A stretch of 39,895 bases of DNA from a virus. A program made the position numbers and the translations under genes. Below the pieces are notes generated by a model. The model saw nothing but the letters and a program-made list of their open reading frames with translations, did no database searches and had not been told where the DNA came from. Positions 196-8,911 of the stretch are shown here, one piece after another (positions within the stretch are counted from its first letter, which is position 1; the number at the start of each line of letters is the position of its first letter). The stretch lies in the IMG/VR virus record IMGVR_UViG_3300011432_000030, positions 1 to 39,895 of that record. The stretch is one strand, 5' to 3'.

Positions 196-432
196 CTATT
201 GTCTGAGCCATAACGCGACGATCATGACAAAAGAGAACATGACCGCCCACCCCAAGAGGGTAATTGCGAACTTTATATCAATTATCTCTTTGTTTAGTTT
301 GTGTTCTTCTTCAGTCATGGGTTTAAATAACCTGAGCGATTCAGCCTTAGCCTCATCCACGGTTGGGCACACCAGTATATCTGCTTTACGTATGGGCTTG
401 TCCCACATCATCACTGTGCAGTGTTCTTTCAT
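196..432 (-). CDS. Small protein with one C-terminal membrane segment
   Basis: This 78-residue protein has a soluble N-terminal part with acidic and lysine-rich stretches, and one hydrophobic segment near residues 55-76 ending in LRQ, so it is probably anchored in the inner membrane by its C-terminus. It overlaps the preceding gene by ATGA (429-432), which makes the start secure. It is the last gene of the leftward early operon before the terminase upstream region. No family is recognised. A lysis or host-takeover role is possible but unsupported. Confidence 0.6.
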   Translation of the reverse strand: MKEHCTVMMWDKPIRKADILVCPTVDEAKAESLRLFKPMTEEEHKLNKEIIDIKFAITLLGWAVMFSFVMIVALWLRQ

Positions 433-926
433 ACTGTGAATCGTTCAGGCCACAAGGCTTTAGCGATGGGCAACAGTTCAGTCTTGAGTTCATCAACCCC
501 TTCCTTGGGCCATGCTGTGACCGGGGCGACCTTGACCACGGACTTGACCCACCTGGTCATGTCCTGTAGATGAGCGAACCATGCAGGGGCTACCTTGCGC
601 TCGGTCTGTTCTTTGGGTTCATCTGTGGGGCACATGAGCAGGAGCATCTGTTTGGGGTCACTGAACCTTGGTGGGTTGGATGCTACCCGCATGTAGACCT
701 TGGCCTTGAGCGGGTTCAGTTTGGGACAGGTAGCAGCCAGGTATGCCGGCCAATCCCATTGTTCAGGGGCAGAGGCTTTGAGTCTGAGTAATTCTTGCCC
801 CTGCATTAATACTTCAACCAGGGTATCGTTAGCCTTGCCCAGGGTGGCTTGTTGCAGGGCTTGGATAACGTCCTCTCGGTCGTTTATGCGGCGGATTAAG
901 GATTTAACTTCTGCGGGCGGGTTCAT
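429..926 (-). CDS. DUF3102-like phage protein
   Basis: The 165-residue protein starts at the ATG whose first base overlaps the upstream stop (GAATGA, 923-926), rather than at the longer in-frame start at 974. A stretch of residues ~35-85 (ELLRLKAS...W..YLAATCP...KVYMRVASNP) resembles the pattern of DUF3102 proteins, in which a helical stretch precedes an aromatic/cysteine motif and a YMR-type motif. DUF3102 has no settled function and is common in phages and plasmids. It is coupled to the HTH-like gene before it and the membrane protein after it. Family assignment is by eye only. Confidence 0.6.
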   Translation of the reverse strand: MNPPAEVKSLIRRINDREDVIQALQQATLGKANDTLVEVLMQGQELLRLKASAPEQWDWPAYLAATCPKLNPLKAKVYMRVASNPPRFSDPKQMLLLMCPTDEPKEQTERKVAPAWFAHLQDMTRWVKSVVKVAPVTAWPKEGVDELKTELLPIAKALWPERFTV

Positions 927-1333
927 TCCAGTTTCATGTGATCGGTTTTGATTTCGGGAAACTTTTCCTTCCATTTAGCCACCCATCGGCCAAGGCTTTG
1001 TTTGTCTCGACCGTGCATAGAAGCTATTTGGGTCAGGGACAGGGGGCGTAAGCGTGTCAAGAATATCCAGCACGCGATTACAGCCCGGACCTCGATGCCG
1101 TCTCCGTTTTGGATACCCTTTCGGCCGGGCTGATAGATCCATTCAAGGATCTTCTGCAAAACGCTTATTGCCGCCGCAATATCAACTTGGGAAACGTCGC
1201 CTGTGTCGAAGCCCAGGTTCTTGTCAACGGCGTCATAATCGAAGTCTTGAGACGGGACGGCCATGCTGCCATCGTCGAAGGCCGTTTCTTGCACGAAAAT
1301 ACTATTAGTAGTGGCTGGATAGTCTGTCAACAC
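923..1333 (-). CDS. Small HTH-like DNA-binding protein, possible regulator
   Basis: The 136-residue ORF begins at GTG 1333 and has an acidic N-terminal half. Residues ~80-125 (RAVIACWIF...RPLSLTQIASMHGRDKQSLGRWVAKW) read like a helix-turn-helix in which LTQIASMHGRDKQSLGRWV is the recognition unit. A good promoter (TTGACA, 17 bp, TAATAG) lies inside the first 11 codons, so the functional start may be the ATG at 1264. The gene follows directly after the pentamer array and heads a coupled trio ending before the terminase region. A role in late or terminase-region control is inference. Confidence 0.6.
   Translation of the reverse strand: MLTDYPATTNSIFVQETAFDDGSMAVPSQDFDYDAVDKNLGFDTGDVSQVDIAAAISVLQKILEWIYQPGRKGIQNGDGIEVRAVIACWIFLTRLRPLSLTQIASMHGRDKQSLGRWVAKWKEKFPEIKTDHMKLE
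1302..1330 (-). promoter_or_regulatory. Sigma70-type promoter, leftward
   Basis: On the minus strand a perfect -35 TTGACA (1325-1330) is followed after 17 bp by TAATAG (1302-1307). It would drive the HTH-like gene, the DUF3102-like gene and the membrane gene, and lies just beyond the pentamer array. If used, the transcript would start near 1295 and the HTH-like protein would begin at ATG 1264 instead of GTG 1333. Confidence 0.5.
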
Positions 1334-1363
1334 TTAATATTGTGTTGTTTCAGACATTACAGA

Positions 1364-1893
1364 ATTGCCTGCCTTGCCATGCCTCGCCACACCCAGACGT
1401 GCCGTGCCCCGCCAAGCCACACCCAGCCACACCACGCCTGCCTAGCCTAGACAAGCCTCGCCATGCCGAGCCGGGCAACGCCGCGCCTTGCCGAACCTCG
1501 CCTCGCCTCGCCAAGCCTGCCGGGCCACACCTTGCCGTGCCCAGCCAAGCCTCACCTTGACAAGCCTCGCCTCGCCATGCCATGCCCTACCCGGACATGC
1601 CTGCCTTGCCTAGCCTGACCCAGCACCGCCTTGACACGCCCAGACTTGCCTTGCCTTGCCCCGACTGCCCAGCCTAACCCCGGCGTGCCATGCCCAGCCT
1701 AACCATAACATGCCTCACCCCGCCAAACCGCGCCTCGCCTGCCAAGCCCAACCTTGACATGCCTCGCCTCGCCTGCCACACCCAGCACTGACTCGCCTCG
1801 CCTTGCCTGCCAAGCCCCGCCTGCCCAGGCCTGCCACGCCGAGCCTTGCCGGGCCCGGACATGCCATGCCGTGCCTGGCCCAGCCCCGCCTGC
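1364..1893. repeat. Degenerate pentanucleotide array (GCCNN)n, ~530 bp
   Basis: About a hundred consecutive 5-base units carry GCC (sometimes ACC, GAC or GCA) followed by two freely varying bases, as in TTGCC ATGCC TCGCC ACACC. The phase slips by a base only occasionally. The plus strand is strongly C-rich and G-poor and the minus strand is GGC-rich. Because the period is not a multiple of three, every frame gives pseudo-periodic peptides; two leftward open stretches (1350-1583, 1674-1862) encode only A-R-G-rich five-residue repeats. It fills the whole gap between the genes ending at 1894 and starting at 1333, and no gene is supported in it. An origin, recombination or packaging role is conceivable. 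Confidence 0.85.
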
Positions 1894-2391
1894 CTAAGCT
1901 ACTTCCAATTCTTCAATGGCGTTGAACACCGATTCGAAGAACTGTTTGTAATCTGAATAGCGTTGTTTCCATTCCCTCAGTTCGGCCATGGCAGCATCGA
2001 GGATCTGGGATTTGTAATCCTCATTCTTTGATGCCACTTGGATAGGAACATACGCCGTGCCTTCGAATTTGGTTTCGGTATCGCTGGCTTGAACGGAAAC
2101 GAACGCTCGCACGATGGGCTGTTCTTGTGGGGGCATGTCGCATTGAATGACGCGCACCGAACGAATCAACCCTCGGGCTTGGTCCTGTCTCCACTCCTCA
2201 GCCGCTACTGAATCATCCCATTCAAAGAACGCGTGCAATGGGTTCTCTTTGGGGCGTGCGGCATCCACAACCATTGCTGGCTTGATGCACCCCTGTTTCT
2301 TTTGGATTCGGTGAAGCTCGCGCCCCACAATAGGAACATGCCCAGATGAAACTTTAGAGTTGGGCATTGCGATGTATTTAATCTTTGCCAT
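1894..2391 (-). CDS. Conserved phage protein of unknown function
   Basis: The 165-residue protein has a central motif LHAFFEWDDSVAAEEWR (about residues 52-68) that I recall from uncharacterised phage proteins, and a glutamate/lysine-rich helical C-terminus (AAMAELREWKQRY..YKQFFESVFNAIEELE). Three bases separate it from the possible RAMP-fold gene upstream, so the two are probably cotranslated and may work together. No catalytic motif is visible. Its stop codon abuts the pentamer array. Confidence 0.6.
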   Translation of the reverse strand: MAKIKYIAMPNSKVSSGHVPIVGRELHRIQKKQGCIKPAMVVDAARPKENPLHAFFEWDDSVAAEEWRQDQARGLIRSVRVIQCDMPPQEQPIVRAFVSVQASDTETKFEGTAYVPIQVASKNEDYKSQILDAAMAELREWKQRYSDYKQFFESVFNAIEELEVA

Positions 2392-2394
2392 AGG

Positions 2395-3021
2395 TCATTT
2401 CACGTGAAACATTCCAAAACTACCGTTGCATTGCGGCCGCCATTCACCGACCCCGATAGCGAACCCGCCCACGTTGAACAGGTTCACGATTTCCTCGGCG
2501 CTGAGCACCCCCTCGTTGTATCTGATTGTGAGTTTGCACTCCCACTGTCGGAACTCACCACGGAAGCGAATATCAGCCGCGCCCATGCCTACCCGTACCA
2601 TGTCCTGGCGTATAGTTGGGGTTCCGCTGATTTCGATCATGTCTCCGACGATGTGAAATGCGCCACGGGCTTCAACCTTCGTGACCCCGTGCACATGTGA
2701 GCAGGCGTCCACAGCCGCGCTCTTGAACGCTACTGCAGGGAAACCATGCTTGCCATTGGGCAGGTGATACAGGCTATCCTGGAAGTCCTGCTCTGGGTTC
2801 TTGGCTGGCCGTTCGGTCTTGGCTTTCTGCATCTGCTTTTCAAGCATCATGGTTTCAGCTTTCTCTGACCATGCGTGACAGATCAGCGAGCTATCACCGA
2901 TAATGGTGATTTCAATGTGCCTGATGTTCATCTTCGGCAATTGCACGTCGACCTTGACGCTGGCTGCTTTGCCGTTTCCGTTTGTGTGTTTAGCTATGCG
3001 GTTCTTTTCTAGTGTTTTCAT
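2395..3021 (-). CDS. Phage protein with RAMP/Cas7-like features
   Basis: I chose the ATG at 3021 because AAAGGA precedes it closely; the upstream in-frame ATG (3045) has no such site. The 208-residue protein contains an N-terminal beta-strand region (IRHIEITIIGDSSLICHAW), a charged linker rich in Lys/Glu, the segment GFPAVAFKSAAVDAC (~95-110), and a glycine-rich end GGFAIGVGEWRPQCNGSFG. Strand-rich ends with a G-x-G...R...G-x-F loop recall RAMP-fold RNA-binding proteins such as Cas7, although no CRISPR array or cas gene is present. Function unknown; a nucleic-acid-binding role is inference. Confidence 0.6.
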   Translation of the reverse strand: MKTLEKNRIAKHTNGNGKAASVKVDVQLPKMNIRHIEITIIGDSSLICHAWSEKAETMMLEKQMQKAKTERPAKNPEQDFQDSLYHLPNGKHGFPAVAFKSAAVDACSHVHGVTKVEARGAFHIVGDMIEISGTPTIRQDMVRVGMGAADIRFRGEFRQWECKLTIRYNEGVLSAEEIVNLFNVGGFAIGVGEWRPQCNGSFGMFHVK

Positions 3022-3088
3022 TTTTCCTTTGGGTTTATGGTTCATTGGGTTTAACTAAATCTGTAAGAAAAACATGGTCATATTTCTT

Positions 3089-3349
3089 TCAGCCAGCGTT
3101 GAACGACGCGCAGATTACGCCCTGCGGTTTGTCGGTTTCTCCTAGGTATTCCACGGTCACTTGGTCTGGTGATTTGCACCACCCGATGTAAGCGTGTCTT
3201 GCCCAATCCATCTGTATATTGCCCAATCCACTAGGCCCGCCACTTGGGTTCATGTTGCGAGCTGCGGCCTCATCGGGTGCAGCCACAACAGCAGAATCGT
3301 ATGTGTCGTATCCGTCCTCCTGGGTCTGTGATATTTTGAATAGTTTCAT
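3089..3349 (-). CDS. Small conserved phage protein, unknown
   Basis: This 86-residue protein begins MKLFKISQTQEDGYDTYDSAVV and ends GVICASFNAG. The pattern of a short strand, a tyrosine/aspartate-rich segment and the block WCKSPDQVTVEYLGETD is familiar from uncharacterised small proteins scattered among phages and bacteria. It is coupled to the VRR-NUC gene by ATGA (3346-3349). There is no membrane segment or metal-binding motif. The 67 bases before the next gene downstream hold nothing recognisable. Confidence 0.65.
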   Translation of the reverse strand: MKLFKISQTQEDGYDTYDSAVVAAPDEAAARNMNPSGGPSGLGNIQMDWARHAYIGWCKSPDQVTVEYLGETDKPQGVICASFNAG

Positions 3350-3750
3350 AATAGTGCGATAAATTCATCCATGCTCCTCACGGTGTGTACGGTATGGCCA
3401 AGCATCTGCATTTCTTTAGCCCAGCCCTGTTGATCCGGGTCGAGCTTGCCCCCGGGCCGTTTAACCTCGATACACAAGACACGACCAGGAGCGAATATGG
3501 TGAAGTCCTGACAGCCGGCCGCTATCGTGCTGCGTTTATCGGTTCGAGCGTGGATATACTTCCACTTGGGCCATTGTGCGTTGCAATAGCGTATGATCTG
3601 GTCGTGCAGGTCCAGCTCGCGTTCGATCTTGGCTTTGATGGCCCGGCTTATGTCCCGAAGTGAACCATCGGCAATCACGCTTCGGCCACGGACATCTTTC
3701 CGCAGCCAGGCGTCGTATTGTTGGTTGGTCCAGTTCATGGGCCGGTCCAT
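3346..3750 (-). CDS. VRR-NUC domain nuclease
   Basis: The 134-residue protein matches a stand-alone VRR-NUC nuclease, a PD-(D/E)xK-type fold. The C-terminal half carries GCQDFTIFAPGRVLCIEVKRPGGKLDPDQQGWAKEM..LGHTV, where D of GCQDF, E of IEVK and the following lysine are the expected metal-binding and catalytic residues. A basic N-terminus includes a possible DNA-contact helix. Phage VRR-NUC proteins act as structure-specific endonucleases in replication or recombination. It starts with ATG 3750 behind GGAGG of the preceding gene end; an alternative start is the Met at residue 5. It belongs to a tightly coupled set with the small membrane protein and HTH-like gene upstream. Confidence 0.85.
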   Translation of the reverse strand: MDRPMNWTNQQYDAWLRKDVRGRSVIADGSLRDISRAIKAKIERELDLHDQIIRYCNAQWPKWKYIHARTDKRSTIAAGCQDFTIFAPGRVLCIEVKRPGGKLDPDQQGWAKEMQMLGHTVHTVRSMDEFIALL

Positions 3751-3754
3751 TCTT

Positions 3755-3934
3755 TCACTTGTCCCTCCATTTCCAGGTTGTGGTGCCGTTCTTCGGGTTC
3801 ACAAGCCACTCGGCATAGCCACGTTTTACGGCTTCGGATTTGAATTTGCTGCACCATGAATTAGCTACCATTGCGGCCACGAATCCAACCATAAACCCAC
3901 CAGTCAAAAACAAGAGTGACGACAGTGTTGTCAT
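3755..3934 (-). CDS. Small membrane-anchored protein, 59 residues
   Basis: A short gene fits exactly between its neighbours: its ATG overlaps the upstream stop (CCATGA) and its stop lies 4 bases before the VRR-NUC start. The N-terminal ~25 residues (MTTLSSLLFLTGGFMVGFVAA) are hydrophobic, giving one membrane segment with the C-terminus probably cytoplasmic. The tail KRGYAEWLVNPKNGTTTWKW is a pattern I recall from many small phage proteins of this layout, which supports real coding. Function unknown. Confidence 0.7.
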   Translation of the reverse strand: MTTLSSLLFLTGGFMVGFVAAMVANSWCSKFKSEAVKRGYAEWLVNPKNGTTTWKWRDK

Positions 3935-4149
3935 GGCAGCACCAGAACAACTCTCGTGTTAATCCGCACCACTCGCGGGTAGGGGATGACTTTGGAATCA
4001 TACAACCGATTTATCACGGTCGAGACCGGCACGCCCAGTTTATTGGCCTGTTCGAGTCGCCATTGTTTCATCGGAATCGCTCCTGGATGCCGTTCCAGGG
4101 CTTTTTCGGTCTTGAGTTTATAGAATGCTCTCCGTTCGGTTAGGGTCAT
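3931..4149 (-). CDS. Small HTH-like protein
   Basis: I chose ATG 4149, preceded by GGGAGG, over the longer open frame reaching 4263, which overlaps the neighbour. The 72-residue product MTLTERRAFYKLKTEKAL... contains WRLEQANKLGVPVSTVINRLYDSK (residues ~33-56), a convincing helix-turn-helix of the kind used by small phage regulators. A short strand-rich tail with several valines follows. It is coupled by ATGA to the membrane protein downstream. Its target is unknown. Confidence 0.65.
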   Translation of the reverse strand: MTLTERRAFYKLKTEKALERHPGAIPMKQWRLEQANKLGVPVSTVINRLYDSKVIPYPRVVRINTRVVLVLP

Positions 4150-8058: not shown

Positions 8059-8402
8059 TCTGGTAAGTGCTGTTTCTCCCGGTCGATTATGGCTTCCATT
8101 TTCCGGGTATAGTAAGACTCAAACAATTCTTCCTGGGGTTTCTCATGCTCAAACCGTCTATAGAGCACGGCCCTCAACCGTTGCGATGGGGTCTTGAAGC
8201 CCAACACAGCTTTCACTGTGACCAATTCTTCGGCTGGGTCTGAATGCGGTTGGATAAGCACGGTCAGATTGTGATTCATTAACTCCATGAACGTGGCCTT
8301 TTCTGTCGCGGTCAACTCCGGGGTTGACATGCCCAAACTCATCGAACCATCCATCTTTGCGCTAGCCCGGGTCAGTTGCATGGTGGTTTGGATGGCTTTC
8401 AT
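8055..8402 (-). CDS. Conserved phage protein near SSB, unknown
   Basis: The start at 8402 is fixed by the ATGA overlap with the Ala-rich gene; the longer open frame reaching 8525 is only a shadow of that gene's GCC-rich repeat. The 115-residue protein reads MKAIQTTMQLTRASAKMDGSMSL and has TATEKATFMELMNHNLTVLIQP and KTPSQRLRAVLYRRFEHEKPQEELFESYYTRKMEAIID. I recall this pattern as a family of short phage proteins often encoded beside recombination or SSB genes. No catalytic residues are apparent. Confidence 0.7.
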   Translation of the reverse strand: MKAIQTTMQLTRASAKMDGSMSLGMSTPELTATEKATFMELMNHNLTVLIQPHSDPAEELVTVKAVLGFKTPSQRLRAVLYRRFEHEKPQEELFESYYTRKMEAIIDREKQHLPE

Positions 8403-8911
8403 TTCTTGAACGGATTTATCAGGGTGCGCAATTTGTCGGCCTGCCATTTGTTTTCCGCCGCCTCTGCCGCCGCCCATGCCGCCGACCATGCCGCCGAAAA
8501 TGTCTGCGCCTCTGCCGCCGCCCATGCCGCCGACCCTGCCGCCGACTCCGCCGCCTCCGCCGCCTCCGCCGCCGCCCTTGCCGCCGCCGGGTTATCAATC
8601 AGCGTCCGCGCAAACTCTATTGCTTGCCGTGGCCGTTTATCGTTTGGGTATTTATCCTCGAACAGGTGCAGTGTATGTTCCGCGCAGGCCACAGCAAATT
8701 GTCGGGCAGTCCGTTCATCAATGATTCCGAATTTCTTCAGCGCCCAGACCATCCACTCCACGTTCTCACACTTGTCCCACATCGTCTTGAGCGTCTTGTG
8801 TTTTTTGATAAACGCACGGCCTTCATCGCATGGACTTAAGTCTAGTAAAGCTTTCTTGGTTAGTTTAGTTTTCATCGGAACATATCTCGGTTTAAGGTCT
8901 TTCAGGTTCAT
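8399..8911 (-). CDS. Ala-rich repeat protein, Imm5-like N-terminus possible
   Basis: The first ~110 residues contain LSPCDEGRAFIKKH, a WDKCENVEWMVWALKKFG segment, RTARQFAVACAEHTLHLFED and RPRQAIEFARTLI. This order resembles a family annotated as putative immunity proteins (Imm5-like) in actinobacteria and phages. From ~110 on, about 40 residues of near-pure alanine helix follow (AAAEAAEAAESAAGSAAWAAAEA), encoded by GCC/GGC-rich triplet repeats at 8455-8590. The start overlaps the SSB-like stop by one base (TGATG). Function unknown; the repeat length may vary between relatives. Confidence 0.65.
   Translation of the reverse strand: MNLKDLKPRYVPMKTKLTKKALLDLSPCDEGRAFIKKHKTLKTMWDKCENVEWMVWALKKFGIIDERTARQFAVACAEHTLHLFEDKYPNDKRPRQAIEFARTLIDNPAAARAAAEAAEAAESAAGSAAWAAAEAQTFSAAWSAAWAAAEAAENKWQADKLRTLINPFKK

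Follow-up and report, generated by a model that had tools for sequence, protein, structure and literature searches.

VIPR was first described in April 2026 for the SUSP1 and Pseudomonas systems (PMC13142463). As presented in the main text of that preprint, a VIPR system combines a RAMP protein, Vipr, with guide RNAs of alternating GGY/NN repeats, and experiments on the SUSP1 system established that the NN pairs recognize DNA while skipping one base and that transcription is thereby repressed (PMC13142463). In the type II system of Escherichia phage SUSP1 (PMC13142463; PDB 36pp), the guides are separate RNAs of ~100 nt that carry mostly GGT and end in conserved 3' tails. Beyond type II, the preprint distinguishes VIPR types I and III to VII, and its main text mentions staggered arrays of overlapping vrRNAs.

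Here, we analyzed a stretch of 39,895 nucleotides of viral DNA (IMG/VR record IMGVR_UViG_3300011432_000030, referred to as the window), which carries a degenerate pentanucleotide array. Judging from sequence comparisons, this array almost certainly encodes the guides of a VIPR system carried by the phage. A literature search on pentanucleotide repeats returned no description matching it. Compared with what the preprint's main text reports for SUSP1 type II, the locus has a homologous Vipr, GGY/NN repeats of 9 to 16 units adjoining a two-gene operon, and a predicted 1-nt skip that falls at the codon wobble position. It differs from SUSP1 in that its array is continuous, tail-less between guides, mostly GGC, and punctuated by GGCA. 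The candidate Vap of the window, compared with Vap1 alone of Vap1 to Vap6, is unrelated to SUSP1 Vap1, and because of this, together with the continuous array without tails, the system is not type II. Its membership in the VIPR family is firm, and the staggered architecture mentioned in the preprint may be that of the window. The hammerhead-interspersed VIPR architecture does not apply, since an Rfam scan of window positions 200 to 4000 (E ≤ 1) found no ribozyme, hammerhead or other RNA. Class 1 CRISPR-Cas systems (Csm3/Cas7 backbone) also have a RAMP-fold subunit and a guide array beside its gene, but the window contains neither contiguous spacers nor direct repeats of 25 to 40 nt. The 5-nt repeat unit, and the lack of any match to PADLOC defense models for five proteins encoded near it, among them Vipr and Vap, argue against CRISPR-Cas membership.

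Results

A cyclic HMM parse placed the array on the minus strand at positions 1368 to 1899 (532 nt, 109 units), with 99 full pentamers and 9 tetramers. The initial annotation had described it as GCCNN units ending at 1893; the degenerate array is real, but its units read GGCNN on the minus strand, it ends at about 1899, and GGCA tetramers interrupt it. Between 1364 and 1893, identity at lag 5 is 0.573, well above the 0.324 ± 0.024 of order-1 Markov sequences of the same composition, and it remains at 0.53, 0.53, and 0.52 at lags 10, 15, and 20, respectively. The GGCNNx6 pattern occurs once in the window and not at all in 100 shuffles. The array is thus confirmed as a real feature. In the minus-strand unit, the fixed positions are G in 96%, G in 88%, and C in 83% of the cases (T in 15%), and almost every substitution there introduces T. 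Both N positions vary nearly freely, with C rarer. This supports the earlier proposals that GGC (GCC on the plus strand) is under selection and that the units, with two of their five positions nearly free, are not slippage copies. Strand also matters, as had been suspected. The genes on both sides are encoded on the strand that reads GGCNN, and the strand of the array is constant among relatives. The second G is replaced by T (GTC/GTT) in 11 of the 99 window units and never by A, a departure from the GGY rule; in other arrays, A and T each occupy this position in ~3%.

Exact GGCA makes up 198 of the 344 tetramers found across 70 arrays, with a spacing of mostly 7 to 14 units. In the window, the parse yields GGCA-separated minus-strand segments of 11, 14, 12, 16, 15, and 13 units, as well as an irregular stretch. 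From the 5' end of the array, these are s11 (1836 to 1890), the irregular stretch of short segments of 4, 6, and 6 units (1744 to 1831), which are perhaps decayed or fused guides, s14 (1670 to 1739), s12 (1606 to 1665), s16 (1522 to 1601), s15 (1443 to 1517, between two GGCA), and s13 (1374 to 1438). One GGCA-bounded segment probably corresponds to one guide, because in s15 and in a segment of mycobacteriophage Quico (see below) the target match fills the segment and ends at GGCA. Set against the main text of the preprint (PMC13142463), GGCA as guide punctuation is, in silico, a new element.

Several arrays elsewhere show further features. One GGCA-punctuated array (L092:1964-3546) contains five copies of a conserved element of ~36 nt, CACGGGAGCAGCAGCATCCGGCGYAAAGGGATGGAC, with a possible CATCC/GGATG hairpin, which makes it a candidate vrRNA tail. 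In the arrays of F1 mycobacteriophages (L242:4990-5275 in Quico; L243 in Donkeykong), the last unit continues as GGCTGG-GCAA-CCAGCC, a perfect hairpin that could be a terminal tail. Another architecture is represented by very long GGCNN arrays that lack GGCA and adjoin a Vipr homologue (L013:6298-7022 and L051:7607-9175).

To see how widely such arrays occur, we scanned IMG/VR with the GGCNNx6 DNA pattern, which retrieved at least 120 viral contigs with GGCNN runs; many of the matches listed are long degenerate arrays of up to ~1.6 kb. From these, the 62 contigs with the strongest arrays were picked from the DNA pattern alone, disregarding proteins. vipr was present in 52 of the 62 and phrog_15946, the candidate vap family, in 22, so that, as DNA, the alternating GGY/NN repeats adjoining vipr that define VIPR guides are found both in the 532-nt array and in this association. 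A BLAST search with the array against 50,697 phage records gave 31 matches, mostly to cluster F1 mycobacteriophages, the others including Gordonia phages and a cyanophage genome. Since mycobacteriophage and Gordonia phage isolates with complete genomes carry this kind of array, the feature as such cannot be an assembly artifact. Genes of phrog_4652 and phrog_15946 adjoin the array in every annotated relative inspected, and searches with the window Vipr and the candidate Vap each returned 33 of the 50,697 records, from the same kinds of phages. The F1 mycobacteriophages Quico, Donkeykong, and Saal and the Gordonia phages UmaThurman and ODay share with the window the Vipr and Vap families, the GGCA-punctuated array, and its strand, but differ among themselves in the order of vipr, vap, and array. 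Arrays with vipr also occur in unrelated phages with GC contents from 0.39 to 0.73. No member of the Vipr family was found in 301 genomes from the family of Nocardia (L200), a search without a positive control there. Two GenBank hypothetical proteins, Donkeykong gp48 (L243:4979-5365) and UmaThurman gp40 (L245:4982-5305), are guide array DNA. In Staphylococcus phage SA1 (GU169904.1, 91718 to 91885), a Vipr fragment is 100% identical to that of Escherichia coli phage SUSP1, and the host label looks doubtful.

The window vipr gene (2395 to 3045, minus strand; 216 amino acids, phrog_4652) is predicted to encode a single-domain RAMP, Cas7-like protein. The phrog_4652 alignment of 76 sequences matched PDB entry 36pp, "SUSP1 Vipr protein," with an E value of 6.7e-41 (2.6e-4 for the window protein alone), and an hhalign profile comparison with SUSP1 Vipr, as encoded in that phage's genome, gave 99.9% (E = 7e-32). 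In agreement, the AlphaFold model (pLDDT 91.9) had a Csm3-type RAMP, 9ash_F, as its best solved match in Foldseek (E = 6e-7, TM ~0.5), and the G-loop GGFAIGVGEWRP is found in the sequence. The candidate vap (1894 to 2391, minus strand; 165 amino acids, phrog_15946) was recognized by its co-occurrence with vipr in phage records; its product gave a model with a pLDDT of 93.4, for which the fold search found no solved relative, and a related-loci search with it returned zero relatives. Downstream of the array lies a gene for 136 amino acids (923 to 1333, minus strand) with a weak HTH_23-like match below the cutoff. Elsewhere in the window, positions 8399 to 8911 (minus strand) encode a 170-amino-acid protein whose low-complexity C-terminal repeat is rich in Ala, Trp, and Glu and has a 12/24-nt period at 8455 to 8588.

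Read with a 1-nt skip, the NN pairs of s15 (TT GA GA GA TC AA GC GT CC TC AT GA TT TA TA) decode to the peptide [FL][DE][DE][DE]S[KN]AVPS[IM][DE][FL]YY, a predicted homologue of FDDGSMAVPSQDFDY in gene 923-1333. At the nucleotide level, the own allele of this site (1236 to 1279, minus strand) matches 23 of 30 NN positions at skip 1 and frame offset 0, and the skip base coincides with the codon wobble. The peptide score is 33.9, compared with a shuffle mean of 14.9 (standard deviation, 2.5), that is, 7.6 standard deviations above it, and none of 15000 shuffles reached this score. As in Quico, the match is bounded by GGCA at either end. The resemblance of s15 to gene 923-1333 is therefore strong at the sequence level, and s15, as decoded, spells a homologue of its carrier's own neighboring gene. 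Searches for the allele that s15 would match in a sister phage were negative, and the related-loci search with gene 923-1333 gave zero relatives. Target searches with s11, s12, s13, s14, and s16 were negative; exact gapped target scans of IMG/VR with s13, s14, s15, and s16 gave 3, 0, 0, and 1 matches, and extension showed those of s13 and s16 to be due to chance. With small target sets, no target was found for five of the six testable window guides or for nearly all other isolate-phage guides.

The exception comes from comparing the guides of Quico, Donkeykong, Brocalys, ByChance, UmaThurman, and ODay with 13 whole or partial mycobacteriophage genomes. With a skip of 1 nt, segment 2 of Quico (q2) matches the tape-measure gene of Che8 in antisense at 19 of 20 NN positions, against best matches of 13, 17, and 15 with skips of 0, 2, and 3 nt, respectively, and none of 600 shuffles reached 18. 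The skip base again corresponds to the codon wobble. At Quico's own homologous site, q2 matches only 14 of 20 positions. The Che8 site also occurs in Squirty, Wachhund, and Minnie, which are closely related to Che8, and is absent from Tweety. In Che8 and Tweety, no vipr cassette is annotated at the corresponding place (first 50 kb), and both phages are absent from the 33 Vipr records. We take this as a strong prediction that Quico q2 targets the Che8 tape measure. When 19 guides from actinophages and cyanophages were tested at the peptide level, q2 was the sole positive. BLAST with guide-derived queries, in which C or G was guessed at the skip, gave only chance matches, a silence that means little because the method would also miss the Che8 site (estimated E ~46). 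The pattern of an AT-rich mycobacteriophage guide had no full-length match among the matches listed.

We then extended the decoding to 450 guides, which were read as peptides against their own loci in three codon phases. In the wobble phase, 6 extreme peptide scores were observed, compared with 2 in 2700 shuffles (0.33 expected), and there were 0 in the other two phases; the cutoffs of this test and of the nucleotide skip test were set in the course of the analysis. The extreme matches include a tape measure (L120), the terminase TerL (L070 and L091), and an integrase (L061), and a guide peptide of L077 points to a tail-region protein with the PHROG label glycoside hydrolase. A match of L012 to a tiny ORF, reached by 5 of 1000 shuffles, was rejected as a target and left uncounted. 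In the window, L077, L061, and L120, Ser or Arg is retained although its codon changes to the other family (AGC to TCx, AGA to CGx, or TCG to AGx), so the matches are explained by homology of the proteins and not by common DNA. In the nucleotide skip test of the 450 guides against their own loci, the mean was unshifted and there were two outliers only, both at skip 1. Taken in silico, the Quico/Che8 pair, s15, and the phase excess among the 450 guides all display the 1-nt skip at the codon wobble that characterizes VIPR. The targets other than those of Quico/Che8 and the s15 likeness are suggestive. The predicted targets comprise structural, packaging, and integration genes of relatives and one unknown gene, whereas those described for SUSP1 in the preprint's main text are satellites (PMC13142463).

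Discussion

By analogy with the published SUSP1 work, the minus strand would be transcribed through vipr, vap, and the array, and Vipr subunits would bind the GGC (GGY) of consecutive units. Each NN pair would then base-pair with DNA, one target base being skipped between pairs, and the bound Vipr-guide complex would block transcription. As to what would be silenced, the most likely targets are alleles of competing phages that are closely related to the carrier, since the carrier's own allele is mismatched; it may be different enough to escape the guide.

Among the other readings, the one that survives best is that VIPR guides serve self-regulation, s15 binding the gene downstream imperfectly and thereby tuning it. 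The best s15 site does lie in the gene directly downstream of the array and on the same strand. However, the 7 mismatches among 30 NN positions look like another allele, with a synonymous Ser codon switch and conservative changes, and the Quico guide matches a sister phage far better than itself. We consider self-regulation unlikely, and weaker than the reading of guides against relatives' alleles.

A degenerate minisatellite, grown by slippage and mutation, would account for the tandem structure and for some exact duplicates lying side by side. It would account neither for the sharp alternation of fixed and free positions, with fixed-base changes nearly all to T, nor for arrays with vipr in unrelated phages of widely differing GC content, whose free bases decode to phage proteins, and is highly improbable. 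Scarcely any likelihood is left either for the proposal of the initial annotation that the array is a replication origin or a protein-scaffold DNA site in which two phased GCC would fall in each helical turn. Strand asymmetry, an intergenic location, and an iterated motif had spoken for it. The array, however, adjoins vipr and vap at varying positions in the gene order and in the remaining genome, its phase is broken by GGCA tetramers every 7 to 16 units, and the GC skew shows only a local change made by the array itself. Moreover, the free dinucleotides carry decodable information, as expected of guide RNAs and not of an origin. What persists of the scaffold idea is the involvement of a repeated protein, the RAMP protein, which would coat the transcribed repeat rather than a DNA site. 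Finally, annotators have placed short ORFs across such arrays, as in Donkeykong and UmaThurman, but a protein-coding repeat is next to impossible given a 5-nt unit with 4-nt interruptions and stops in all six frames of the window array, which show that it is not a single gene.

Returning to VIPR guides against relatives' alleles, we tentatively suggest, as a possibility that the odds do not favor, that the window belongs to a GGCA-punctuated, tail-less VIPR lineage whose guides act against structural, packaging, and integration genes of close relatives, that is, in kin discrimination. The analysis shows VIPR in cultured mycobacteriophages of Mycobacterium smegmatis mc2 155, a standard laboratory host, and supplies one concrete prediction of a guide and its target, namely guide 2 of Quico and the Che8 tape measure. 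Because self and nonself differ at this homologous site, targeting rules, guide boundaries, and phage-phage exclusion become open to direct tests. A function can also be suggested for the conserved families of "unknown function" phrog_4652 and phrog_15946 and for arrays now misannotated as hypothetical ORFs. If the kin-discrimination reading is true, it implies a process that renews guides from the coding sequences of related phages, and if guides are ever acquired from DNA, VIPR would be a memory system outside CRISPR.
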